NCBI GenBank assembly: GCA_025462805.1
Contig: JAOAPJ010000175.1
Span: 1 to 17,632, forward strand
DNA from: Acidobacteriaceae bacterium
Lineage (GTDB): Bacteria > Acidobacteriota > Terriglobia > Terriglobales > Acidobacteriaceae
DNA length: 17,632 nt
Reading direction: 5' to 3'
The notes below the pieces were generated by a model that saw nothing but the letters and a program-made list of their open reading frames with translations, ran no database searches and was not told the origin of the DNA. Of this stretch, positions 4,163 to 16,644 are shown piece by piece. The position numbers were made by a program, and so were the translations under genes. The stretch's first letter is position 1. Every line of letters begins with the position of its first letter.

Positions 4163-7100
4163 TCAGAATGTGATCTTGCCTCCAAGTTGCAGCACGCGGC
4201 CCGGCCGCGCTGAGACTACGTGGCCGAACAGTACATTCGCCGCGGGCGGCTGGTCGTTCACATTTCGGTCCACCGCGCCCGTACCCGGCCCTCCCGCTGC
4301 CGCACTCGGTGACGTGGGATCGACGCCGTACTGAACATGATTGAAGGTGTTGAAGCTCTCCACACGAAACTGGAAGTTTGCCCGGTCCCCCAGAGCGAAG
4401 CTTTTGTCCACTCCCATGTCCCAGTTATTGATACCCGGCTCCCGCAGAATGTTTCGTCCACTGTTACCGAATTCGCCCGCCAGTGGCTGCTGGAAAGCCG
4501 CTGTATTGAACCACTGGTTGATGCTCTTGGAGAAGTTCGAATGCGGACTGCCGATCACATTCGCACGCTCGTTGTACGCCTCGAGCAATCCAAACTGATC
4601 GTTCCCCTGCACCGAAAACGGGAATCCCTGCTGGAACGTACCCACGCCTGTCCACTGCCAGCCACCCACTGCCAGATCTGCCGCGCGATTTATTTGGCCG
4701 CCAAACCTTTTGCCTCGACCCACCGGCAGCTCATAGACGTAACTCAACACAAACCGCTGCCCTACGTCGAAGTCCGAACGCGCATAGTCGGCATTCGGGT
4801 TGTGATCGTTCTGGTGGCCGGCAAACCCGTTCGTCGCGCCGATTCCAGCCGCCGCCGACTTGTCATCCATGCTCTTCGACCACGTATAGACTGCCAGCAG
4901 CGCCAGGTCGGTCGAGCGCCGCTCGATCCGCACATTCGCCGCGTTGTAGTTCGAATAACCGATCCACCGGCTATCGAGCGTGCCGGTGCCATTGGTGAAA
5001 TTGGGCAATGGCTTACGGTTGACCACCGGGCAGTCGCCAAGGGTCGGATTCAGTTGGCAGAAGCCAGGATTGGCCACGGGAAAGGGCTGATTGATGTTGA
5101 TTCGGTCGAGCAGATGCGTGCCCTTGTTGCCTACGTAGTTCAGCTCCAGTGTCGTATTCCGCGCCAACTCGCGCTGCACCGAAGCGGACCACTGCTGCAC
5201 GTAGGGATTCTTTGGATTCTCCGAGATGATAACCGCAACGAACTGGCTGCCTGCGGGAAACGTCGTACCTCCATTCGACCCCACAGCCACCGGGCGCAGG
5301 CTCGTCGCCGGGACGAAGAGGTTGTCAGTCGACTTCGGCAGCGTGGGGTCCACCGTCGGGGTCAGTGAAGCGCGAATTACATAGGGATACAGGTCGCCCG
5401 AGTTGTCGATTTCGCGCGTCTCCGAAGAGTCGAAGAACATTCCATAGCCGCCGCGGACGACTGTCTTATCCGTGAAGCGATAAGCGAAACCCACGCGCGG
5501 CGCAAACACACCATACTGCGGATCGGCGGGGTTGTTGCGGCCGCAGTATCGGTAGAATCCATTGCCCGACGGCGCGATCCCGTCCGTCAACAGCGTCGGA
5601 TTTGCAAAGCACATGCCCCCGAGTGCGTTCTGCTTGTCGATCCAGAACATCTTGTTGTTCTTCTCATACGGCACGGTGCGGAAGTCCCAGCGCAGCCCTA
5701 GGTTCAGCGTCAGATTCGGCGCTGCCTTCCAGTCGTCCTGGAGGTATGGGCCGATGTATTTGAAGACGAACTGGTTCAGGTTGCCCGGAGTACTGCTGCT
5801 CGACTGACTGAACGGACCCGGCTGGAAGGTGCTGGCACCCGCGTAGTAGCCAAGTAGATAGTCAGCCACCGCATTGCCCGTGCCGCAGTGTACCGTCGGG
5901 CACCCGCTGCTGTTGTTGCTGATGGTCGTATTGTTGAAGCTGTAGGAGCCAAGAAAGTTCGTCGACAGATCGCGCCGCTGTACCCAACTGCGGTAGTCAA
6001 AGCCTGTGCTGAAGGTGTGCCTTCCCCTCACTGTCGAAACCGAGTCCGCGAATTCCCACATGGGGATGTCGCTGGTCGTCGGGTTGTTGCCGGGACTGCC
6101 CACCGCGCCGCTCAGGTTCTGCAGCCCGATGTTCGGATACCCGCGCGCGTAAGCCGGAAGGTTGCTGAAGACACCGGTCAATCCCAGCGCGCTCACGTCA
6201 GACTGCGGCGCGGGGCTATCGCCCTGGATGACCGTCGCTCCCAAGTGGCCCACTCTGAAGTTGTTGACGAACGCATGCCGGAGCGTAATCGTGTGCGAGA
6301 TCTCCCAGCTTGTCGAGCTCTCGCTAAAGTTGTTGAGGCCGGCCGGCAACGATGTGGTGCTCGTTGTCTGCAATGAGTAATCCGCCTTTGTATACCGGAA
6401 GAACACGGAACCCCACCTGCCGACGTTCTGGTCCAGGCGGTAGGTCTGCTGGTCAGTGTCGTTGGGCAGCGCCGTACTCAGGTGGAAGTTGCCCAGGCAA
6501 TCGGCGGTAAAGCAGTTCGGAGCCGGAAACAGCTTCGCCGTCACCGCCGCCAGTCGTGAGAAGCGCGTCGCCGGAACCGCGTTACCCGCAAAGGGAGCCC
6601 CGGTCGCCGGATCGATCGGCATACAGGGATTGCCCCCCGCCAGTGCGCTCGTGCAGGCCGCGGTCCCATATGCGGGCAGCCCGGAGGCCGCAAAGTCTCC
6701 GCTCAACTCCGCCGGGGTCGGCACGTTGAAATAGCTGCTCGTGCCGTTGCGAATCCGCCAGCCCTCATAATTTGCCAGCCAGAAGGTCTTGTCGCGGCCG
6801 TCGTACAGCTTTGGAATGACAACCGGACCGTCTAGCACAAAGCCGAACTGGTTCTGCCGCAACTCCGGCTTGGACGGCTGGAAATGCGTGCTCGCATCGA
6901 ATGCATCGTTACGCGCAAACTCGAAAACAGCTCCATGCAGCCTGTTAGTGCCGCTCTTGCTCACGATATTGATCTGGTTTGCGCTGAATCCATACTCGGC
7001 CGAGTACGTTTCGCTCTGAACACGAAACTCCTGGATGGCGTCCTGCGACAGAATGACCGCAGGCGTGTTCAGCGCCGTATCTGTGTTCACCATACCGTCC

Positions 7101-7690
7101 AGTGTGTAGTTGTTTGACTCCGGTCGCGCTCCGTTGATGCTGATCGCGTTGCCTTCGCCCTGTCGCATCTGGCCTTGCTCGCCCACCGTTTGCACGGCGC
7201 CCGCACCAATGAACAGCAGGTTGAGAAAGTTGCGTCCGTTCAGCGGAAGCTGGTCCACCTGGCGCTGCGTCACAAGCTGCGTCACGGCTGCTGTGTCCGT
7301 GTCCAGCGCCACAGCCGAAGCATTGATCTGCACTGTCTCCGTGTTCGCGCCCGGTTTCATCTGCGCGTTCACTCGCGCCTGCTGCGCTACACCAAGCGAG
7401 ATCCCGCCGATATTCTCTTTCGCGAATCCGGGGACCGTCACCGACACGGCATACGGCCCAGGAATCAGGTCGGGCACGGAGTAATCGCCCGCCGAGCTGG
7501 AGATTGCCGTATGGGCAATGCCGGTGGCTGTGTCTGTAATTGTCACTGTGGCATTTGGTACCACGGCCCCAGTATTGTCCGTGACCGTGCCAAGGATCGT
7601 GCCGGTCGCCCCGCCTTGGCCGTGCGCCGTCGCCACCAGCAGGACCGCAGCTACGCCCGTCGATAGCCAGCGATTGAGCTTCTGTATCAT
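4163..7690 (-). CDS. Oar-like TonB-dependent receptor with carboxypeptidase-regulatory-like N-terminal domain
   Basis: A large outer-membrane receptor (1175 residues), probably for energy-coupled uptake of oligosaccharides. The start is the ATG at 7690, with GGAGG five bases before it; a longer open frame to 7837 lacks family character. Residues 1-25 are a signal peptide ending at about AHGQ. Residues 28-110 form the beta-sandwich domain (GTVTDNTGAVVPNATVTI), which is the TonB-receptor version of the carboxypeptidase regulatory domain. The plug follows at about 125-245 (DQLPLNGRNF, INGARPESNNYTLDG, QDAIQEFRVQSETYSAEYG). The rest is a beta-barrel with many aromatic strands, ending in GKITF with the terminal Phe used for barrel assembly. 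No SusD-like partner is present. This architecture is abundant in Acidobacteria. Its position beside the rha operon suggests that rhamnose-containing glycans are the ligand, but this is inference. Confidence 0.93.
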   Translation of the reverse strand: MIQKLNRWLSTGVAAVLLVATAHGQGGATGTILGTVTDNTGAVVPNATVTITDTATGIAHTAISSSAGDYSVPDLIPGPYAVSVTVPGFAKENIGGISLGVAQQARVNAQMKPGANTETVQINASAVALDTDTAAVTQLVTQRQVDQLPLNGRNFLNLLFIGAGAVQTVGEQGQMRQGEGNAISINGARPESNNYTLDGMVNTDTALNTPAVILSQDAIQEFRVQSETYSAEYGFSANQINIVSKSGTNRLHGAVFEFARNDAFDASTHFQPSKPELRQNQFGFVLDGPVVIPKLYDGRDKTFWLANYEGWRIRNGTSSYFNVPTPAELSGDFAASGLPAYGTAACTSALAGGNPCMPIDPATGAPFAGNAVPATRFSRLAAVTAKLFPAPNCFTADCLGNFHLSTALPNDTDQQTYRLDQNVGRWGSVFFRYTKADYSLQTTSTTSLPAGLNNFSESSTSWEISHTITLRHAFVNNFRVGHLGATVIQGDSPAPQSDVSALGLTGVFSNLPAYARGYPNIGLQNLSGAVGSPGNNPTTSDIPMWEFADSVSTVRGRHTFSTGFDYRSWVQRRDLSTNFLGSYSFNNTTISNNSSGCPTVHCGTGNAVADYLLGYYAGASTFQPGPFSQSSSSTPGNLNQFVFKYIGPYLQDDWKAAPNLTLNLGLRWDFRTVPYEKNNKMFWIDKQNALGGMCFANPTLLTDGIAPSGNGFYRYCGRNNPADPQYGVFAPRVGFAYRFTDKTVVRGGYGMFFDSSETREIDNSGDLYPYVIRASLTPTVDPTLPKSTDNLFVPATSLRPVAVGSNGGTTFPAGSQFVAVIISENPKNPYVQQWSASVQRELARNTTLELNYVGNKGTHLLDRININQPFPVANPGFCQLNPTLGDCPVVNRKPLPNFTNGTGTLDSRWIGYSNYNAANVRIERRSTDLALLAVYTWSKSMDDKSAAAGIGATNGFAGHQNDHNPNADYARSDFDVGQRFVLSYVYELPVGRGKRFGGQINRAADLAVGGWQWTGVGTFQQGFPFSVQGNDQFGLLEAYNERANVIGSPHSNFSKSINQWFNTAAFQQPLAGEFGNSGRNILREPGINNWDMGVDKSFALGDRANFQFRVESFNTFNHVQYGVDPTSPSAAAGGPGTGAVDRNVNDQPPAANVLFGHVVSARPGRVLQLGGKITF

Positions 7691-7811
7691 CTGTTCCTCC
7701 CCGCAAATTGAGCCCCGGCGAACTACCGGGACCGCTGGAAGTAACTCCGTCGACTGCTCTTCCCTCTGGCAGAGTTGCGCTCGAAAGGACCCTGCTCTGG
7801 CATTCGTGAAG

Positions 7812-7825
7812 TGGAACTTCTTCCA
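7812..7825. promoter_or_regulatory. Candidate operator TGGAACTTCTTCCA at the receptor transcription start
   Basis: A palindrome with 5-bp arms TGGAA and TTCCA around CTTC. It lies within a few bases of the predicted start of receptor transcription, where a bound repressor would block initiation. The half-sites are the same as in the rhaI-rhaT palindrome and the E. coli IclR consensus operator, but the spacing is 2 bp shorter than in the former, so the match is only moderate. Confidence 0.35.
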
Positions 7826-7833
7826 GCGCGCAG

Positions 7834-7863
7834 ACAATATCGACCCTCAAGAAACATTGTCAA
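7834..7863 (-). promoter_or_regulatory. Putative sigma-70-type promoter of the TonB receptor gene
   Basis: On the minus strand there is a perfect -35 TTGACA (7863-7858), an 18-base spacer, and TATTGT (7839-7834) as a 4-of-6 match to the -10 box. Transcription would start near 7827, giving a leader of about 137 nt before the ATG at 7690. The box lies in the most AT-rich part of the intergenic region. The assignment rests only on consensus matching. Confidence 0.5.
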
Positions 7864-8047
7864 GCGTAAAAATAATTCTCCAATGAAATATGCCAGCCGC
7901 GGGACTTGACCGTCACTAACGCATGCTGCATCGGGCCATACGGCCCCGCAAAATGTGTGGAAGGCGGTACAGGAGAGGGCGTTCGAGCTTATTTCGCGAC
8001 TCGATTCCGTCGCCAGAAGCAGGCTTTGGAACCACAAATCAGGCGAC

Positions 8048-9193
8048 TCAGACCCCTGAGGTCGCTCTGGCTGGCGTCTCGGCGAGAGCCTCGGCGGATA
8101 GCACGGCGTCGGGCGCAACAACTCGATGCTGCACGTAGTTATATGGCGGAACAGTATGCCCGCGAAGCAGCGTCACCCCCAGTTGAATTAGTCGCGGCCC
8201 GTAAGTGTGCGCTTCGTGGGAGATGGACGCGATCAGGGGCCCTTTCTTGTTCTTCCTCATCTCTTCGAGCACCTCGGGAATGCAATCTTGGCCCACAATC
8301 GCGATGCTCTTCTCCCTGTTCAACTCGCGTACCACCTGCAGTGCGCCCAGGGCACTCGTATCCGTCGCCGCAGCGATGAGCACGCGATCCGAGCGCCCAT
8401 GGCGCTGCAGGAACTCGGAAACTACCTGTGCGCTTGTCAGCCGCATACCGCGCCCATCCAGCCGTACATAGGCGCGGGGCCCGATTGCCGGCAGAAGAGT
8501 GCGTATGCTCTCAAAGGCTCCAGTGATGCGGCTCTGAACGAAGGTGCCCGCTTCTGCAACGTCCAGTCCCAACACCCAATCCACCTTGCTCTTCCAGGAA
8601 CGGATGGCGTGCTGCGCCAGCAGTTCTCCCGCCTCATACCCAACCTGAAAATTGTCCACACCGAAATACACTGCGCTCGGGTGCGGGATATCTACGGCAA
8701 TGAGCGGAATGCCCGCCTTGGAGAAGGTGTGCGCGATCAGCGGAGCAACCCGCTCCTCGATCTGGAACTCGATCACCAGGTCTACACCCTCCGCGACGAA
8801 TTCCTTCGCGTTGCGGATCGCGGTCTCCGCATCATAGCGGTTGTCGCGGACCATTAACTCGACGCCCGAAGCCGCTGCAGCCGCGCGCAAGCTGCTGCTC
8901 ACGGCCTCCGAGAAGGGCATCTCTGCGCTCTCTCCGGCAAACCCAAAGCGAATCTTTTTCGGTCGCGCCACGAGCCGGTAGGCCCCGTCTGGAGTCTGAG
9001 CAACATAGCCGCGGTGAACGAAGGTTTTGAGAATTCGGTAGATGCTTGTCTTCGAGATCTGCGCACGCTGGAAGAGCTGTTCGAGTGTCAGCGGATGATT
9101 GTCCGCCTCCAGAAGCTCCAATACGTCGAGCGCCTTGGAAAGGATCGGAATCAGGTACAGGCGCTTCATTTTTTGGCGCTGCAATCGTGCCAC
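8048..9193 (-). CDS. Hybrid transcription regulator: IclR-type HTH plus periplasmic-binding-protein-like sugar sensor
   Basis: A 381-residue protein. Residues 12-75 form a winged helix-turn-helix of IclR type: SKALDVLELL, then PLTLEQLFQRAQISKTSIYRI with the recognition helix at about 48-57, and a wing at YVAQTPDGAYRL. There is no IclR effector (GAF-like) domain. Residues 81-360 instead read as a type I periplasmic-binding fold as in LacI or RbsB: KKIRFGFAGESAEMPFSEAV, GVDLVIEF, GIPLIAVDIPHPSAVYFGVDN, VLIAAATDTSALGAL, IAIVGQDC and ASISHEAHTYG. It is probably a cytosolic sugar-responsive regulator of this rhamnose locus. The gene follows rhaB in the same direction. The start is uncertain: GTG at 9193, TTG at 9184 or ATG at 9169, none with a strong ribosome site. 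Confidence 0.82.
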   Translation of the reverse strand: MARLQRQKMKRLYLIPILSKALDVLELLEADNHPLTLEQLFQRAQISKTSIYRILKTFVHRGYVAQTPDGAYRLVARPKKIRFGFAGESAEMPFSEAVSSSLRAAAAASGVELMVRDNRYDAETAIRNAKEFVAEGVDLVIEFQIEERVAPLIAHTFSKAGIPLIAVDIPHPSAVYFGVDNFQVGYEAGELLAQHAIRSWKSKVDWVLGLDVAEAGTFVQSRITGAFESIRTLLPAIGPRAYVRLDGRGMRLTSAQVVSEFLQRHGRSDRVLIAAATDTSALGALQVVRELNREKSIAIVGQDCIPEVLEEMRKNKKGPLIASISHEAHTYGPRLIQLGVTLLRGHTVPPYNYVQHRVVAPDAVLSAEALAETPARATSGV

Positions 9194-9298
9194 CCCCGCG
9201 CGTTCACCATATCAGGTGCGTTTCTCTATTGGAAGGCTCTGTCAGTCCGACTACGATCACATCCAGCCATCGCGGTCCATGTACACCCCGAAGGCGCG

Positions 9299-9398: not shown

Positions 9399-10820
9399 TC
9401 AGCACGCGTCGACAGCGGTCAATACACGGGCCCAGTACGCGATCCTTGTAGGCGAATTTGGCTCGTCCTCCCAGGTCGCCAACTGGATGGCGAAGTTTCC
9501 GATCGTCGAGCTCTCTGCAACTCCGCAGCAGACCTCCATCCCCGTGGCCCTCGCGGTTAGCCTGTTGAGAAGCCCGTTCCGGCTCCCGCCACCGACAATC
9601 GCCAGCCTGCGGAAGCGCTTCCCGGTCAGCCCCTGGGCGTCGCGCAACGTTACGGCATAGCGCTCAGCAAGGCTATGGAAGATCAGGCTGGCGAAACGCG
9701 GCAGCTCCGACGCATTCTCCCTGATGGGCGCGAGCCCAAGCGCTACCCGCTGCTCATTTATGCGCGACGCCATCGCCCCAGGTAACAAGAGGTCGGGATC
9801 ATCCACCTCGAGGAGGCCGTCAGGGGCTGGCGCGTTCTCGGCGGCTGTAATCAGGTCAACTATGGAAGCACCTGGGCTCAATTGCTCGATTGTCTGCTTC
9901 AGCAGCCACATGCCGTTAACGTTCTTATGAAAGCACACGCGGTCACCAGCCGCACCCTGATTTGTAAAGCCTGCCCGGCATGCCTCTGCGGTTAGCAGCG
10001 GCTGATCCAGCAGCGTGCCTACGAGCGACCATGTGCCGGAGCTGATGTAGGCCCAGTCGTCGCCTTCGAGCGGAATGGCAGCGACCGCAGACGCCGTGTC
10101 ATGACATGCCGTCGCAATCAACCGCGTGTTCGTAAGCGCCGAAGGTGCGTCGGGCAATCCTCGGAGCACGCCTACATCCGTCCCCGTCTGCACCAGCGTG
10201 GGCGCCGCGGATGCGTCGAGGCCCGCCACGCGAAAGACCTCTTCGCTCCAGGCGTGCCGTCCCATGTCCACCAGTCCTGTGTGCGTCGCATTGGTGTACT
10301 CGGCGACACGGCGCCCGCCCAGCGCCGTCAGCACGTGCTCGGGCAGGTTGGTCCACGGTGCAGCGTGCGGGACGCCGGCAGCGCCGTCTGCCATGAGCTG
10401 ATAGAGCGTGTTGATCCGCAATGGCTGCGCGCCGATCAACTGATAGAGCTCCTCGTCGGCGCAGTGGGCCCGCAGTGCAGCGATTGTCGCTTCCGTCCGC
10501 GCATCGCGGTAGCAGTGTGGCGGCCCGAGCGGCACACCTGCGTCGTTCAACCTCACATAATCAACGGCCCACCCGTCCACTCCGAGCGATACGATCGGAG
10601 CGTCCAATCCATCGCCACCGAGCAGTAGACCCTTCGCGAGTTCGCAGAGAATGCGATCCAGGTCCCAGTACAGCGAAGATCCATCCGCAATCGGCGCGTT
10701 GTCGAAGCGGTGCATCAGGCTGATGCGTGGGCGCTCTGCCTGCCACTCCAGACGCGAGATGCGGCAACTCTCCGCACCCAGGTCAATCGCAATCAGAGAG
10801 GGACGGTGGCTGCCAAGCAC
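9399..10820 (-). CDS. rhaB: Rhamnulokinase (FGGY family)
   Basis: Phosphorylates L-rhamnulose to L-rhamnulose-1-phosphate with ATP in the cytosol, the second step of the pathway. At 473 residues it is close to the usual length (about 490). The N-terminal nucleotide/phosphate loop is IAIDLGAESCRISRL (10-24). GVDGWAVDYVRL (80-91) corresponds to the GIDTWGVDF segment of E. coli RhaB. CHDTASAVAAIP (239-250) carries the likely catalytic base Asp241. YISSGTWSLVG (258-268) and IVGGGSRNGLLNR (408-420) are the FGGY C-terminal nucleotide-site motifs. The start is a GTG with GAGAGG upstream. It begins 18 bases after the rhaEW stop, so it is in the same operon. The stop is immediately followed by the lutA relic. 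Confidence 0.93.
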   Translation of the reverse strand: MLGSHRPSLIAIDLGAESCRISRLEWQAERPRISLMHRFDNAPIADGSSLYWDLDRILCELAKGLLLGGDGLDAPIVSLGVDGWAVDYVRLNDAGVPLGPPHCYRDARTEATIAALRAHCADEELYQLIGAQPLRINTLYQLMADGAAGVPHAAPWTNLPEHVLTALGGRRVAEYTNATHTGLVDMGRHAWSEEVFRVAGLDASAAPTLVQTGTDVGVLRGLPDAPSALTNTRLIATACHDTASAVAAIPLEGDDWAYISSGTWSLVGTLLDQPLLTAEACRAGFTNQGAAGDRVCFHKNVNGMWLLKQTIEQLSPGASIVDLITAAENAPAPDGLLEVDDPDLLLPGAMASRINEQRVALGLAPIRENASELPRFASLIFHSLAERYAVTLRDAQGLTGKRFRRLAIVGGGSRNGLLNRLTARATGMEVCCGVAESSTIGNFAIQLATWEDEPNSPTRIAYWARVLTAVDAC

Positions 10821-10838: not shown

Positions 10839-13061
10839 TTAGCGCAGGAATGCGTCCGTCAGGCCGCCATCCACGGGAATCAGATGGCCTGTCGTGCATG
10901 GCGATCTGGGCCCGGCGAGGAAGAGAATGGCCTCGGCACACGTCTCTGGATCGATCGGGCGGTGAGTCAGCGTCCGCTCTGCATAGAAGAGGGCTAGGGC
11001 CATGCGGAGCTCGTCGTCGGTCATACTCTCGTCGTTGTCGATCCCGTATTTCCTCAGTGATGCCAACACCCGATCGCGGGGAAACATCGTCGATCCCTTC
11101 ACCACGGTCGCTGGGCTGATTCCATTCACACGTATCAGCGGCGCCTGAGACACCGCTAACTCGCGGACCAGATGGCTCAGTGCCGCCTTGCTCACGTCGT
11201 ACGCCTCGGAGCCACGCTTCGGCACAACCGCGTTGGCCGAACTCGTGAGCACAATGCTCGCCGGCAGACCCTGCTCACGCAGCAGCTTCCCGATCTCTTC
11301 GACGAGCAGGAAGTTGGCCGTTACGTTCACTTCAAGCGTCAGCGCCCACTGCTCGTCAGAGATAACGCCGGTCGGGGATGAGGGGAAAAGTGCCGCCGTG
11401 TTGACCAGGATGTCTACACCGCCGAACTGCCCCACGGCGAAGCGCATCGCTTCCCGGATTGATTCGCGGCTTCGGATATCAACCGGCACGGCAGCCGCTG
11501 ACTCCTTGCCGATCGTCTTCTTTAATTCCTCAGCAACAGTCTCGGCGCCTCTTGCGTCGCGATCCGCCACCACAACATGTGCGCCGCGCTCTGCCGCAAG
11601 CTTCGCCACTTCCCGGCCAATTCCGCTTCCACCACCCACCACCATCAGGATCTGCCGGCTCAATTCCCTCTCCGGCGGTTGGCGCCGAATCTTGGCCTCT
11701 TCGAGCGCCCAGTACTCAATGCGAAAGGCCTCTCCCACCGGCAGAGCGACATAATTGCTATAGACCTCAAAGGCCTCGGCGAGCGCGCTTGAACCGCACT
11801 GCGCCACTGGCAGGACAGGAGCACCGGCTTCCAATGCGCCAGCGCCCTTCATGACGTGTATCGCGTTCACATAGAACTCGCCAGTGATCCGGGACTCTGG
11901 CTTACTTTTGCCGAAGCTGAACATCCCTAGGCCGGGGATCAGGATCACGGTCGGGTTCGGGTCGCGCATTGCCGGCGAGTCCGGCATCGCGTGCGCCTTG
12001 TAGTACGCGCCGTACTCGTCTCGATAGTCCGCGAGCCGGGTGTCCACCTGCTCCTTGAGAGCGTCCATTCCGTTTGCCGGATCCCAGGGCACATACATCG
12101 GGCGAATCTTCGTACGAACGAAATGGTCCGGGCAGCTTGTCCCAAGGAACGCCAGCCGCTCTGCAGCAGCCGAATTCACAAACTCCAACACGTCCGGGTG
12201 GTCCGAATAGCTTCCGATGAGACGCTTCTGCGCGCTCACACGACCGCGCAGGAACGGGAGGATCTCCATGGCAAGTGCTTTGCGGTCTGTTAGAGGCTCA
12301 TGCTTTGCTCCACCAAACGTGGCGCTTGCTTTCTTCGCCTGATGCTCATTGATGAAGCTCGTGAGCTGATCGATGATGGTGATGGTGTTTAGATAACACT
12401 CGCGCTGCGTCGCACCCCAGGTGAATAGGCCGTGGCCTCCAAGGATCACCCCGTCGCAGTTCGGCTGTTGCTCCGCGGAGCGCTTCAGCATCATCCCCAG
12501 CTCAAAGCCCGGTCTCTGCCAAGGCAACCACACCAGGGCGCGACCGTAGCGATGGTTGAACTCTTCCATCTTGTCGCGGCCATTCGCCGCGGCCGCCAAT
12601 GCAATCGCGCAGTCCGGGTGTAGATGATCCACGTGTGCAAATGGCAGGAAGCCGTGGAGCGGGGTGTCGATCGATGCGGCCACGGGATTGAGCCCGAAGG
12701 TGCAGAGCGGATAATAGGACACCATCTCATCTTCGCGGTCCACACCAGCGTATAGCGCTTCGAGAGCGAGCAGTCGCTCCATATAGAGCGTCGCGAAACC
12801 CTCGCGCTTGATGCTGCCGAGGTCTCCGCCACTTCCCTTCACCCAAAGCACCGACGCCCGCCGGCGGGTCAGCGGGTCGGCCATCTCGATCTTCGAGCTT
12901 GTGTTGCCGCCGCCGAAGTTGGTGATCCGCAGGTCCGAACCTAATAGGTTCGAGCGGTAGCGCAGCAGTTCAGGTTCATCCATGCCGCGGGCCACACTGT
13001 CATCCCACCGGTCTTCGAGGTGCTCGAGCCGGATCTGCGAACCAGCCAAAGTGACAGACAT
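10839..13061 (-). CDS. rhaEW: Bifunctional L-rhamnulose-1-phosphate aldolase / L-lactaldehyde dehydrogenase (RhaE-RhaW)
   Basis: A fused enzyme of 740 residues. Residues 1-450 are a class II aldolase/adducin domain. FGGGNTSSK (49-57) is the phosphate-binding loop. HVDHLHPD (143-150) with GGHGLF (208-213) supplies the probable zinc ligands His146, His148 and His210. Residues 468-740 are a short-chain dehydrogenase: the glycine motif VGGGSGIG (475-482) for NAD, Asp500 after the second strand (VVVAD), LVNTAA (552-557), catalytic Ser (LTSS, 605-608), YDVSK (Tyr621, Lys625) and a C-terminal PVDGG. The aldolase makes DHAP and L-lactaldehyde; the dehydrogenase half of this family oxidises L-lactaldehyde to L-lactate. 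It is also named RhaD aldolase/alcohol dehydrogenase in domain databases. The NNAG motif is NTAA here. It lies 102 bases after rhaI and 18 before rhaB. Confidence 0.93.
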   Translation of the reverse strand: MSVTLAGSQIRLEHLEDRWDDSVARGMDEPELLRYRSNLLGSDLRITNFGGGNTSSKIEMADPLTRRRASVLWVKGSGGDLGSIKREGFATLYMERLLALEALYAGVDREDEMVSYYPLCTFGLNPVAASIDTPLHGFLPFAHVDHLHPDCAIALAAAANGRDKMEEFNHRYGRALVWLPWQRPGFELGMMLKRSAEQQPNCDGVILGGHGLFTWGATQRECYLNTITIIDQLTSFINEHQAKKASATFGGAKHEPLTDRKALAMEILPFLRGRVSAQKRLIGSYSDHPDVLEFVNSAAAERLAFLGTSCPDHFVRTKIRPMYVPWDPANGMDALKEQVDTRLADYRDEYGAYYKAHAMPDSPAMRDPNPTVILIPGLGMFSFGKSKPESRITGEFYVNAIHVMKGAGALEAGAPVLPVAQCGSSALAEAFEVYSNYVALPVGEAFRIEYWALEEAKIRRQPPERELSRQILMVVGGGSGIGREVAKLAAERGAHVVVADRDARGAETVAEELKKTIGKESAAAVPVDIRSRESIREAMRFAVGQFGGVDILVNTAALFPSSPTGVISDEQWALTLEVNVTANFLLVEEIGKLLREQGLPASIVLTSSANAVVPKRGSEAYDVSKAALSHLVRELAVSQAPLIRVNGISPATVVKGSTMFPRDRVLASLRKYGIDNDESMTDDELRMALALFYAERTLTHRPIDPETCAEAILFLAGPRSPCTTGHLIPVDGGLTDAFLR

Positions 13062-13163
13062 AACAATCCCTGCTTCCTACGGTCGGCCGCCAGCACGCCT
13101 TGGCCGCGAAACGACAGATATCACAACCGAAATCTCAATAGCAACTTACTTACCTATAGAAAT

Positions 13164-14354
13164 TCACGCATATGTGCTCAAGAGCGCCGCGTTCCTCGCA
13201 GCCCTCTCCCGCTCGATTCGCACCACGTAACCGCTCTCCCTCAGGGCCGCCATCGGATCCGCGGGCAGTCCCCGTTTCTGCCGCCAGCCGGCCAGTGCTG
13301 GTCGAACATCGGTCCAGAAGGCCGCCCGCAGGCACTCTTCCGCGTCGACGATCTGGCCCGCGGCCTGTAGATGTGCAAGCCGTTCGCGGTCCACCAGCGC
13401 CGCCTTCAGATAGAGCTCCTGCGCTGCCACCACGGTCTGAACCATCGCCTCCATCTTTCCCTTGAGATTATGGCTCTGGTCGATCATGTAGGCGATCTCG
13501 GCAACCGCTGCGCCATCACTCTCATTGAAGATTTCATGGAAAATCCGAAAGACCTGGTATGGATCGATCGAGCCTATCGTCAGATCATCGTCCGCATACC
13601 GCCGATCGTTGAAGTGAAAGCCGCCTAATAGACGCATGTGCAGCAGCCAGGCCACCACCTGCTCGATGTTTTGCGATTGGTAGTGGTGCCCCGTGTCCAC
13701 CAGCACACGCGCCTGCGGGCCGGCCGTGCGCGCCAGATGCACCGCCATCCCCCAGTCCGCCACATCCGTGTGATAAAAGGCCGGCTCGAATGGCTTGTAT
13801 TCGATCAGCATGCGCTGCTCCGGGCCAAGTTCTGCGTGTGTCGCCCCCATGGCCTTCTCTAGCCATCCGATACGGTTACGAATGCTTTGTGACCCGGGGT
13901 AATTTGAGCCATCCGCAATCCACAACGACACATCGGTTGAACCAACTTCCTTTGCAATCCGGACCGATTCAAGCAGGTGGTCGACAGCCATTCTTCGAAT
14001 CCCCGGATCCGGATTGCAGATCGAGCCCAGCTTGTATTCCTGGTTCTGAAACAGGTTTGGATTGACCGAGCCCGCGCGCACGCCGTAGCGCGCCGCTAGG
14101 CTTCGAATCACCGCCGCGTCCGGTATGCCCCCGGGCATATCCCAGAGCACGTGCAGCGCAAGCTGCGGGGTGACCCCGGTGAGCGCGTGCACTTCCGCCG
14201 CATCCGCGAACTTCTCCTCAAGCGTTGTGGCTGCGCCCGGCTGCAGGAACTTCCCGAAACGGGTGCCGGTGTTCGCGAACCCCCAGGACGGAATCTCAAT
14301 CTGCAGCTTGTCCAAGGTGCGGATTTTGTCCTCGCTGACTTCGCTCCCGCTCAT
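13164..14354 (-). CDS. rhaI: L-rhamnose isomerase, RhaI type
   Basis: Converts L-rhamnose to L-rhamnulose; a metal-dependent TIM-barrel enzyme of the Rhizobium/Pseudomonas stutzeri type, not the E. coli RhaA type. The ATG at 14354 has GGAGGAG six bases upstream and gives 396 residues; the frame extends to 14543, but that extension would run through the operator. Numbered from this ATG, key residues are His68 (LHVLWD), Glu185 (LIEYKPFEP), Asp220 and His223 (LVDTGHH), His247 and the aspartates of GGFHFNDRRYADDDL (about 244-258), and Asp292 (YMIDQSHNLKGK). These correspond to the catalytic and two-metal sites known in P. stutzeri L-RhI. It is the first gene of the minus-strand rha operon and diverges from rhaT. 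Confidence 0.93.
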   Translation of the reverse strand: MSGSEVSEDKIRTLDKLQIEIPSWGFANTGTRFGKFLQPGAATTLEEKFADAAEVHALTGVTPQLALHVLWDMPGGIPDAAVIRSLAARYGVRAGSVNPNLFQNQEYKLGSICNPDPGIRRMAVDHLLESVRIAKEVGSTDVSLWIADGSNYPGSQSIRNRIGWLEKAMGATHAELGPEQRMLIEYKPFEPAFYHTDVADWGMAVHLARTAGPQARVLVDTGHHYQSQNIEQVVAWLLHMRLLGGFHFNDRRYADDDLTIGSIDPYQVFRIFHEIFNESDGAAVAEIAYMIDQSHNLKGKMEAMVQTVVAAQELYLKAALVDRERLAHLQAAGQIVDAEECLRAAFWTDVRPALAGWRQKRGLPADPMAALRESGYVVRIERERAARNAALLSTYA

Positions 14355-14379: not shown

Positions 14380-14409
14380 AGTTTATGTCGATCCGACCGA
14401 CTTTTCCAA
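14380..14409 (-). promoter_or_regulatory. Putative rhaI operon promoter
   Basis: On the minus strand, TTGGAA (14409-14404) could be the -35 and TAAACT (14385-14380) the -10, with an 18-base spacer; each matches 4 of 6 consensus bases. The transcript would begin about 20 bases before the rhaI ATG. The -35 lies inside the palindromic operator, as expected for repression. It rests on consensus matching only. Confidence 0.4.
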
Positions 14410-14429
14410 ATGGAAAATCTTTTCCATTT
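14402..14429. promoter_or_regulatory. Palindromic operator between rhaI and rhaT (IclR-box-like)
   Basis: A perfect inverted repeat: arms AAATGGAAAA (14408-14417) and TTTTCCATTT (14420-14429) separated by TC. A third half-site TTTTCCA (14402-14408) overlaps its left end. The core TGGAAAATCTTTTCCA closely resembles the known E. coli IclR operator consensus TGGAAATNATTTCCA, with one extra base at the centre. It lies between divergent rhaI and rhaT, overlaps both proposed promoters, and is the clearest candidate binding site for the IclR-HTH regulator encoded at 8048-9193. Confidence 0.75.
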
Positions 14430-14449
14430 GACATCTCTTACGCTAGGAT
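14421..14449 (+). promoter_or_regulatory. Putative rhaT promoter
   Basis: TTTCCA (14421-14426) and TAGGAT (14444-14449) are spaced by 17 bases, each a 4-of-6 match to sigma-70 boxes. A perfect TTGACA lies at 14428-14433, but no acceptable -10 follows at the right distance. Either way the promoter overlaps or abuts the palindrome. Confidence 0.3.
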
Positions 14450-14514: not shown

Positions 14515-15669
14515 TTGGGTGCCAATCCCCTCGTCGGGGTCATGTATCACTGGATCGGCGGTCTCGCCTCCGCCAGCAACTTCATTCCCTTTCGGCCCAT
14601 AAAACGCTGGTCTTGGGAGATTTATTGGATCGTACAGGGCTTCGCCGCGTGGATCGTGGCTCCTGCGCTGATCGCTTCCCTGCTCGTTCCTGGATTGCCC
14701 GCCTTGCTGCACCACGCTCCCTCGCAGGTGCTCTGGCATTCATTCCTGTGGGGGACGCTCTGGGGTATAGGAGGCCTTACCTTCGGACTGTCCATCCGCT
14801 TCCTCGGCATCGCCCTCGGTTATGCCATCGCCCTCGGTTTCTGCACCGCTTTCGGCACCCTGATGCCGCCCGTATTCAGCGGACAACTCGCCGCCATCCT
14901 CCACCAGCGCGGCGGCCAGATCATTCTGTTGGGCGTGTTCGTCTGCCTGCTGGCCATCGCGGTCAACGGTATGGCCGGCTACTCGAAAGAAAGGGAAGTG
15001 CCCGCTGAGGAGAAGGCGGAGCTCGGGGAGCGCGACTACTCCTTCGCTAAGGGACTGGCCGTCGCCATCTTTGCCGGAATCATGAGCGCCTGCTTTGCTT
15101 ACGGGCTTGCCGCCGGCAAACCGCTTGCCGAGCTCACGGCTGCTCAGCTCGTGGTTCATCACCGCGCTCTGCTTTGGCAGAACCTCCCCGTGCTGGTGGT
15201 GGTTTTATGGGGCGGGTTTCTCACCAACCTGCTCTGGTCCGCCGCGCTGATCGTGCGCAATCGCTCGGCATTGCAATTTCTCGGCGCACCGGGCAGCAAC
15301 CCCATGGGCACTTCGCCAACCACTGGGGAGACACTCATCAGCCTCGATCCCTTGCATCCGGAACTTTCGCTCCGCCTCCCGCCAGCCGTGCTCCTGCGCA
15401 ATTACCTGCTTGCTGCGCTGGCTGGCGTCATCTGGTACTTCCAGTTCTTTTTCTATTCCATGGGTCAGACGAAGATGGGCAAGTATGACTTTTCCAGCTG
15501 GACACTGCACATGGCAAGCATCATCATCTTCGCTACGATTTGGGGGATCGCGCTGCGCGAATGGAAGGACACCAGCCGCCGTACTCGTTTTCTAGTCGCC
15601 TGCGGACTTTCGCTGCTCATCGCCTCCACCATCGTCGTCGGCTACGGCAACTTCCTCTCTGCCCGCTGA
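14515..15669 (+). CDS. rhaT: L-rhamnose/H+ symporter RhaT
   Basis: A 384-residue inner-membrane sugar/proton symporter with about ten hydrophobic helices, importing L-rhamnose. It can be matched by eye to E. coli RhaT along its length. Examples are YHWIGGLASASNFIPF (E. coli WHLIGAASAACFYAPF), KRWSWEIYW (KKWSWETMW), GTLWGIGGLTFGLSIRFLG (GAMWGIGNINYGLTMRYLG), GVIWYFQFFFYSMGQ (GLMWYLQFFFYAWGH) and SSWTLHMA (ISWMLHMS). The start is a TTG at 14515, with GAGG seven bases upstream. The frame is open back to 14452 without another good start; an ATG at 14539 is a possible alternative. It diverges from rhaI and ends 21 bases from the convergent amidohydrolase gene, with no obvious terminator between them. 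Confidence 0.93.
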   Translation: MGANPLVGVMYHWIGGLASASNFIPFRPIKRWSWEIYWIVQGFAAWIVAPALIASLLVPGLPALLHHAPSQVLWHSFLWGTLWGIGGLTFGLSIRFLGIALGYAIALGFCTAFGTLMPPVFSGQLAAILHQRGGQIILLGVFVCLLAIAVNGMAGYSKEREVPAEEKAELGERDYSFAKGLAVAIFAGIMSACFAYGLAAGKPLAELTAAQLVVHHRALLWQNLPVLVVVLWGGFLTNLLWSAALIVRNRSALQFLGAPGSNPMGTSPTTGETLISLDPLHPELSLRLPPAVLLRNYLLAALAGVIWYFQFFFYSMGQTKMGKYDFSSWTLHMASIIIFATIWGIALREWKDTSRRTRFLVACGLSLLIASTIVVGYGNFLSAR

Positions 15670-15690: not shown

Positions 15691-16644
15691 TCACTCACGC
15701 TGGTCCGAGCGCCTCGGCTGCCATCGATAGATTCGCTGCGAATTCGCCATGAAGAACTTCTCTTCGGCGGTTTCGCCTTTGCTTGCGACGAACTGCCGAA
15801 CGATCGCAAGGGTCTCCCCGTAGCTCGCTATATGGTCGCTGTTCGGCCAATCGCTGCCGAAGAGCAGCCTGTCTTCTCCGAACAGCGACCATATGCATTC
15901 GAGTTTCGCCTCATAAGGGGCGACGTTGCGATCCAGACGGCCCTCTCGTCTCACGGGAACCTCGGACAGCTTTGCGACAACTCGTGGTGCAGTGGCCAGC
16001 TCCTGCAGTCGAGCACGATAGTCCGTTCGCTCGCTTGCACTGTCCGGCTGCTGAGCGTTGGGCAAATGGTCGATCACTATCGTCAGCTCCGGAATCCGCT
16101 GCGCTACGCCAACCAGCGCACGGATGAGGCGGGGATCCGGGTTCGCGCTCTCCAGCACGAGACCGAACCGCGCCAACCGCCGCAACCCGTCAACGAAGCT
16201 TGGCTCCTGCAGAGCCGTCGCCAGGTCACGCTTCCATAAGTTTCCGTAGCGGATACCGAGGAACAGCGGGCTGCGGTGCAGGCGTTCCAAATCGCCGGCA
16301 AAGCTCGGGTCCGATGGCTCAAGGTTACCGACCATCCCCACCATTACAGGGTAGCGTTCGACCGTATGAAGGAGCCAGTCATTGTCGCTTTTGAGCGGGC
16401 TCGCTTCGATCGCGATCGCCCCGACCACACCGTATCTTCCGGCGATTCGCTCGTATCGAGGCGGGAGCGAAGGACGGCGGATCACATCGCCCGGCTCGGG
16501 CCAGGGTACGCCATCCGGCCGGCGTGGATCGAAAAGGTGAATGTGGGCATCGATGATGCGGCGAGGGACCGCTGCAGCCAGCGTCAGGCGTGGTACCGTC
16601 ATCGCCACAGCAGTTGCGCCACACAGAAAGTTTCGTCGATTCAC
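15691..16644 (-). CDS. Tat-exported metal-dependent amidohydrolase (lactonase-like, amidohydrolase 2 family)
   Basis: A 317-residue TIM-barrel hydrolase. The N terminus MNRRNFLCGATAVAMTV, ending near TLAAAVPRR, is a twin-arginine signal, so the folded metalloenzyme would act in the periplasm. The mature part starts with the metal motif IDAHIHLFDP (His34, His36). It continues with a strand-end His193 (IVIDHLPN), VAKLSE (223-228) and FGSDWP (262-267, Asp265), which are the usual amidohydrolase 2 motifs. Closest named relatives by motif are L-fuconolactonase and L-rhamnono-lactonase-type enzymes, so a sugar-lactone substrate is a reasonable inference but not shown. The start is a GTG at 16644, chosen because it puts the twin Arg at residues 3-4; its ribosome site is weak. 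It lies 75 bases after the GH109-like gene and is probably co-transcribed with it. Confidence 0.8.
   Translation of the reverse strand: MNRRNFLCGATAVAMTVPRLTLAAAVPRRIIDAHIHLFDPRRPDGVPWPEPGDVIRRPSLPPRYERIAGRYGVVGAIAIEASPLKSDNDWLLHTVERYPVMVGMVGNLEPSDPSFAGDLERLHRSPLFLGIRYGNLWKRDLATALQEPSFVDGLRRLARFGLVLESANPDPRLIRALVGVAQRIPELTIVIDHLPNAQQPDSASERTDYRARLQELATAPRVVAKLSEVPVRREGRLDRNVAPYEAKLECIWSLFGEDRLLFGSDWPNSDHIASYGETLAIVRQFVASKGETAEEKFFMANSQRIYRWQPRRSDQRE

Follow-up and report, generated by a model that had tools for sequence, protein, structure and literature searches.

What kind of protein is encoded by the minus-strand gene at 8048..9169 of a 17,632-nucleotide contig from an Acidobacteriaceae bacterium (the whole of this stretch is called the window below), and which genes does it govern? 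The original prediction had read it as an IclR winged helix (about residues 12-75) joined to a type I periplasmic-binding-protein (PBP) fold (about 81-360) and as the likely rhamnose regulator. The open reading frame, 8048-9193, has 381 codons and stays open to a GTG at 9193; we place the start at the ATG at 9169, following the database entry P0001 (373 aa) and the conserved KRLYLIPILSKALD after this ATG.

8048..9169, minus strand: gene of the IclR-SBP regulator (proposed RhaR of Acidobacteriota), 373 aa; from ORF, Pfam, database entry P0001 and AlphaFold2
8990..9142, minus strand: IclR-type winged helix-turn-helix, residues 10-60 of 373; PF09339 50.5 bits, PDB profile matches and fold
8159..8947, minus strand: RbsB-like sugar-binding sensor (type I PBP, CUT2), residues 75-337

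The expected domain boundaries proved accurate. In the 381-aa reading Pfam places HTH_IclR (PF09339) at residues 18-68 (50.4 bits, cut-off 22) and Peripla_BP_4 (PF13407) at residues 83-345 (79.9 bits, cut-off 35.1), and Peripla_BP_1 is also above its cut-off in the sensor (30.7 bits against 22.2). For IclR_C, the LacI HTH and GntR the Pfam scan reported no match up to E = 1, a nominal limit within which HMMER filters drop most matches above about 0.1. The N terminus is of IclR type and not LacI, the C terminus is occupied by Peripla_BP_4 and not by IclR_C, and structure prediction agreed with the supposed build: the AlphaFold2 model is a single well-ordered two-domain protein (mean pLDDT 93.1) with the winged helix from residue 8. 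A LacI-type identity was rejected, as Pfam finds no LacI HTH and the winged helix is of IclR type by fold and by its PDB matches (13 PDB sequences, for the most part of IclR-type regulators, match the N-terminal profile); an ordinary IclR identity was rejected for want of IclR_C, and the regulator fully belongs neither to LacI nor to the IclR family in its usual definition, which includes that domain. As for the sugar-sensor body, the foreseen PBP fold stood, whereas its kinship had to be corrected: the fold is RbsB-like, scores higher as Peripla_BP_4 than as Peripla_BP_1, and has its nearest kin among ABC-transporter (CUT2) solute-binding proteins, not specifically among LacI-type sensors.

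This two-domain build, established computationally, is no mis-assembly, because both domains are precomputed in 119 of the best 120 relatives out of 3456 found. A search from a distant member gave both domains in 112 of the 120 relatives listed, the eight others being mostly shorter, and both were matched in 65/65 aligned members (40 of the window's clade and 25 more distant), among which the locus-derived sequences had been pre-picked as full-length matches. Of plasmid records 42 had a match, and among the 40 matches listed there is no full-length IclR-SBP fusion, all of them beginning at residue 74 or later except H32 and H33 (64) and H8 (46). By E-value, the plasmid protein that matches the sensor domain best is a binding protein for transport (29% identity), whose gene lies in an L-rhamnonate operon of Acidisoma.

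One source gives the name 'ribose transport system substrate-binding protein' to many database members of the family, P0003 and P0008 included, and such naming hides their winged helix. Names of this kind, together with PF13407 and the RbsB-like fold, would suit an ABC-transporter solute-binding protein. We consider this reading extremely improbable and rejected the identity, because a winged helix occupies the N terminus, where an export signal would be expected, in the above 119 of the 120 best listed relatives; moreover, the ten window ORFs scanned include no ABC ATPase or permease. The regulator thus shares its fold with the RbsB/GanP/YtfQ-type CUT2 proteins and differs from them in its fusion to a DNA-binding domain, in its presumably cytoplasmic location and in the lack of ABC genes among those ORFs.

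The surroundings of the gene point to rhamnose.

4163..7837, minus strand: TonB-dependent receptor (predicted regulon member), named by reading the sequence; the true start is probably further in than 7837
9399..10820, minus strand: rhaB, rhamnulokinase (predicted regulon); TIGR02627 311 bits, below the cut-off of 528
10839..13061, minus strand: rhaD, bifunctional rhamnulose-1-P aldolase / short-chain dehydrogenase (predicted regulon); NF006189 998 bits, cut-off 634
13164..14354, minus strand: rhaI, L-rhamnose isomerase (predicted regulon); TIGR02635 477 bits, cut-off 531
14515..15669, plus strand: rhaT, L-rhamnose/proton symporter, divergent from rhaI (predicted regulon); PF06379 216 bits, NF010024 465 bits, cut-off 468

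The genes rhaB, rhaI and rhaT score below the NCBIfam cut-offs, yet those families are the best explanation for them; rhaI starts, as read from the sequence, at the ATG at 14354 after GGAGGAG. In agreement with what had been claimed, no classic rhamnose regulator of AraC, DeoR or LacI type occurs among the ten ORFs scanned. An amidohydrolase at 15691-16644, related to L-fucono-1,5-lactonase (99 bits against a cut-off of 400), adjoins the rhamnose genes and possibly represents a non-phosphorylated deoxysugar branch.

The same context recurs elsewhere, where surroundings unrelated to rhamnose would have spoken against the prediction: rhaI or rhaD at 60% identity or more lies within the fetched stretches of 28 of the 35 regulator loci (L001-L035), which are related, so that the counts are not independent. 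This linkage, itself a computed observation, supports the reading as a rhamnose regulator. Neither gene was nearby in the other seven (L001, L004, L009, L010, L012, L032, L033), and the draft genomes G305 and G306, which belong to these seven, gave no RhaI match at E <= 1e-60. The clade, at 56% identity or more, occurs in 22 of 297 Acidobacteriota genomes; rhaI, at 60% or more and in one case partial, is found in 30, which include every one of the 22 (Fisher p 6e-27, uncorrected for relatedness). Clade member and rhaI lie no more than 4 kb apart in 21 of these 22; in G120 they are on separate contigs.

Further genes near the regulator belong to the same metabolism. A GH106-type alpha-L-rhamnosidase adjoins it in L002, an alpha-L-rhamnosidase (Bac_rhamnosid families) is near it in L010, and a LutB-like lactate-oxidation gene accompanies the rha genes in L008 (7867-9306). 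In L028 (5847-8703) a candidate operator is followed by three LutABC-like lactate-oxidation genes and then by rhaI, and L014, L024, L027, L030 and L034 have a candidate site at a similar place; this fits a breakdown of rhamnose via lactaldehyde to lactate. We count the pathway coherence given by the LutABC-like genes and the rhamnosidases in favour of a rhamnose regulator.

On which DNA would such a regulator act? The regions upstream of rhaI share an element that we read as TTkCAATAGAnA followed by TTTC. Exact TTKCAATAGA, a motif chosen by reading the very loci in which it was counted, occurs 27 times in 25 of the 35 loci L001-L035, compared with a mean of 1.45 (maximum 5) in 20 Markov resamples and of 0.6 (maximum 6) for 200 letter-shuffled motifs. 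From 28 of 34 sites (dropped were L002 11204, L008 3329, L011 9977, L013 9975, L032 4007 and the window site) a 22-bp matrix was made; its threshold of 8.5 is the 95th percentile of resampled sequence, in which scores go up to 22.0. Within 500 bp upstream of rhaI 18 of the 22 clade-bearing genomes pass and four stay below the threshold, against 0/9 control rhaI genes, eight of which come from genomes without the clade and one of which is the second rhaI of the clade-bearing genome G187. Within 3 kb the numbers are 19/22 and 0/9. Fisher p is 3.5e-5 with the nine controls and 8.5e-5 with the eight without the clade, uncorrected for relatedness and with short loci of many test genomes, though not training data, inspected before the test. 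Two of the 22 positives overlap the training set (L163 is the L024 genome, L169 the L002 genome), and without them 17/20 pass; the median score of the positives is 24.7.

In three draft genomes (L129, L131, L132) rhaI and the regulator are on different contigs, and the site nevertheless stands immediately before rhaI, as exact TTTCAATAGA in L129 and L131 and as TTCCAATAGG, two differences from TTKCAATAGA, in L132. Of the four other genomes in this separate-contig search, one has its rhaI beside another regulator copy (L130), one ends at the contig edge (L133) and two gave no rhaI match. The candidate site also precedes the regulator gene itself in several genomes, among them loci without rha genes, where it is exact (L004) or has one mismatch (L001, L009). 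Thus the candidate operator is conserved, is found before rhaI on other contigs and is absent before rhaI where the clade is missing. In five whole genomes TTKCAATAGANA was not enriched over its reversed control (6 against 5); alone it is unspecific genome-wide, and what carries the case is therefore where the site stands, ahead of rhaI, rhaD and the regulator. In many genomes the motif is no more than half palindromic, and the relatives' sites have TTTC/GAAA boxes in common with different spacing.

As the link of motif to protein is one of association, it may be asked whether the operators belong to another, unlinked regulator, the IclR-SBP protein controlling something else. We hold this to be very unlikely: such a regulator would hardly account for the site before the IclR-SBP gene in the three loci without rha genes, for its presence before rhaI on another contig in three genomes, or for its presence before none of the eight rhaI genes in genomes without the clade, and the TTTC/GAAA boxes fit IclR motifs in general form. 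The preferred reading remains that the IclR-SBP protein recognises these operators.

In the window a direct search was weak: the clade consensus GAAAN7TCTATTGAAA gave only two sites, each with three mismatches (0.41 expected; 11/200 shuffles equal this), and TCTATTG alone was not significant (1 against 0.80 expected). The comparative route was therefore taken. The elements predicted in the window are the following.

7868..7889, minus strand: predicted site ATTTCATTGGAGAATTATTTTT upstream of the TonB-dependent receptor gene; matrix 16.4
9214..9235, minus strand: predicted autoregulatory site CTTCCAATAGAGAAACGCACCT upstream of the regulator; regulator-promoter matrix
13124..13163, minus strand: predicted site(s) upstream of rhaD (ATTTCTATAGG..., GTTGCTATTGAGA...); borderline matrix scores 9.7, 8.7, 7.7
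14380..14409, minus strand: predicted rhaI promoter TTGGAA-N18-TAAACT, read by eye; its -35 overlaps the candidate operator
14407..14430, no strand: 24-bp palindrome CAAATGGAAAA-GA-TTTTCCATTTG with perfect arms in the rhaI/rhaT intergenic region; predicted main operator

With the matrix trained without the window, 7868-7889 is the highest match in the whole window, and the five best matches, which fall in three places (7868-7889, 14403-14424 and 13124-13163), are all intergenic, intergenic DNA being 5% of the window. The rhaI/rhaT match at 14403-14424 scores 12.0, well below the positives' median. The palindrome with its 11-bp arms is the only perfect inverted repeat in the window with an arm of at least 11 and a loop of at most 10; seven of 100 Markov resamples hold any such repeat. 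The site at 9214-9235 is the top window match (16.5) of a matrix from the regulator promoters of five other genomes, is not among the top seven window matches of the 28-site matrix, and lies where relatives have their regulator-upstream site; in the window, TTCCAATAGA is at 9225-9234.

An IclR group-2 operator consensus, TGRAACAN1-2TGTTYCA, is given in the available text of a 2021 survey of the family (PMC8222616). The rhaI site at 14411-14426 differs from it at two of 16 positions, a match not significant alone, since 17/200 shuffles hold as many matches and an equal one lies at 9069-9084, inside the regulator gene; at three mismatches or fewer the window has three sites against 1.01 expected, and for the group-1 consensus it holds no good site. 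The claim that DNA-site preference would be unlike that of LacI holds as far as it is visible here, the candidate operator being made of TTTC/GAAA boxes as in published IclR motifs.

How would the bound protein act? Of 33 sites, 32 (all but rhaI of L077) have a core overlapping the footprint predicted for the polymerase (-45 to +20). Since the promoter model uses E. coli-like weights and takes whichever promoter scores best close to a site, in several cases a weak one, chance would produce much of this overlap. The clearest regularity is seen in close relatives: in 6/6 of those scored, the -35 hexamer, TTGAAA, is provided by the rhaI site. This very place, at about -40 in these relatives and, by eye, in the window, is one that activators use, and the IclR family includes activators, so that the same protein on the same operators might instead be an activator, or act in both ways, and recruit RNA polymerase when rhamnose is bound. 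We regard this as rather unlikely. Across lineages the position of the site relative to the promoter shifts from -42 to +17, with cores at about -1 to +17 or within the spacer, and the orientation flips, while overlap with the polymerase footprint is the constant; shifting position and flipping orientation fit steric repression better than activation.

We therefore return to repression and consider it quite probable that the protein is a cytoplasmic one-component repressor of L-rhamnose catabolism that acts via TTTC/GAAA operators and is released by sugar. Its IclR winged helix, in a dimeric protein as we infer, would bind operators overlapping the promoters of rhaI(/rhaT), rhaD, the TonB receptor gene and its own gene and would block RNA polymerase there, and its RbsB-like body would bind L-rhamnose (or L-rhamnulose or its phosphate), upon which closure of the cleft may displace the pair of winged helices and thereby release the repressor from the DNA. 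Residues R214 and D270, invariant in 65/65 members, align with residues of ribose-binding proteins which we take to be ligand contacts.

As a refinement of this repressor model, the effector may be not free rhamnose but L-rhamnulose, rhamnulose-1-phosphate, L-lactaldehyde/L-lactate or a rhamno-oligosaccharide, which we see as a sizeable possibility while not the one to be expected first. The LutABC-like genes between site and rhaI in L028, the predicted site at the TonB receptor gene, the alpha-L-rhamnosidases near the regulator in L002 and L010 and the L-rhamnonate operon around the best plasmid relative by E-value all speak for a linked compound; RbsB-type proteins, on the other hand, mostly bind free monosaccharides, and the predicted regulon includes isomerase and importer.

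A precedent exists in AraR of Bacillus subtilis, which according to the available part of PMC4218819 unites a GntR winged helix with a GalR/LacI-type sugar-binding domain and is thus likewise a chimeric one-component sugar regulator, with the winged helix of one family and the PBP-fold sensor of another. We group our regulator with such chimeric proteins, as one that would work in an AraR-like way with an IclR head; it differs in having this head where AraR has GntR, in its RbsB-like sensor (PF13407), in rhamnose as the predicted sugar and in its occurrence, here, in Acidobacteriota. With IclR, KdgR, PcaR and TtgV it shares the N-terminal IclR winged helix and, in its candidate operator, the TTTC/GAAA boxes, and it differs from them in having a sugar-binding sensor in place of the GAF-like IclR_C and about 370 aa, compared with about 250 residues in the available text of the IclR survey (PMC8222616), in whose main text words that start with Acidobacter, periplasmic or rhamn are absent. 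As in LacI/GalR proteins, a PBP type I sugar sensor serves a one-component regulator, here without the LacI HTH. LacI-type sites have a central CG, and the candidate site has none.

RhaS/RhaR (AraC type), RhaR (DeoR type) and RhaR/RhmR/RhiR (LacI type) likewise control rhamnose catabolic and transport genes, with a head and build unrelated to those of the IclR-SBP regulator. The types AraC, DeoR and LacI are those listed in the available text of a survey of rhamnose regulons (PMC3870299); in its main text no word starts with IclR or Acidobacter. Our literature searches, which are no proof of absence in print, found no report of a fusion of IclR with a periplasmic binding protein, the available part of PMC5882156 contains no such case, and for acidobacterial rhamnose regulation no described regulator was found, as judged mostly from titles.

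The IclR-SBP family is larger than the rhamnose branch formed by our regulator: its members outside this branch adjoin hexuronate, arabinoside and other genes. In a quick tree a single branch has the 40 members of the window's clade on one side (SH-aLRT 99); the distant members L086, L108 and L109 join next to this clade, with a possible long-branch effect flagged by the program, and the rhamnose clade has winged-helix residues unlike those of the other branches. There are up to seven matches per searched genome, in a survey that covered Acidobacteriota only; the few database members with an organism name are from what we take to be acidobacterial groups.

The neighbours of distant members were clustered and cluster representatives compared with Pfam. 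UxuA mannonate dehydratase and a short-chain dehydrogenase adjoin them in six loci (L094, L096, L099, L102, L104, L113), with an SGL-type lactonase as a further clustered neighbour in four of the six, and this branch is likely a hexuronate regulator; by eye, its regulator-uxuA intergenic regions hold, to a varying degree in six regions, another candidate motif that is TGnnAAACGAT-like. GH127 genes adjoin distant members in L093, L100, L103, L111 and L112, and rhamnosidase-type genes do so in L093, L103, L111 and L112. AraA-like isomerases lie near distant members in L090, L091, L095, L101, L107 and L115; these are homologues of a distant AraA/FucI-like isomerase (Pfam 26 bits) that stands beside a GH39-like gene at 1461-2891 of the window, and an annotated arabinose isomerase adjoins a transport operon on a Rhizobium plasmid (L127). 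No clear theme is seen around L087 (peptidases) and L086 (transaldolase-family gene). The distant members L079, L080/L089 and L098 (35-38% identity) also adjoin rhaI-like genes, 40% or 63% identical, and control of rhamnose by IclR-SBP proteins may therefore extend beyond one branch.

On balance we lean towards seeing in the IclR-SBP proteins a distinct family of one-component sugar sensors, derived from an IclR head and a CUT2 binding protein and expanded in Acidobacteriota, where branches for rhamnose, hexuronate, arabinoside and other sugars would replace LacI, AraC and DeoR types. Closure of the cleft would be passed to a winged-helix dimer via a short linker without the LacI hinge helix. 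The family would have gone unnoticed because databases often name its members ribose transport proteins, and a new label is suggested for these.

Taken together, the conserved neighbours and conserved DNA sites suggest that this protein would be a gene switch for the use of the plant sugar rhamnose in a soil bacterium. It would bring a head-sensor pairing for which our searches found no report among sugar regulators, and a testable predicted rhamnose regulon and operator for soil Acidobacteriota. Orthogonal sugar-responsive switches might be drawn from the modular pairing of head and sensor, and a comparison of the branches could reveal how a binding protein of transport systems turns into an allosteric regulator.
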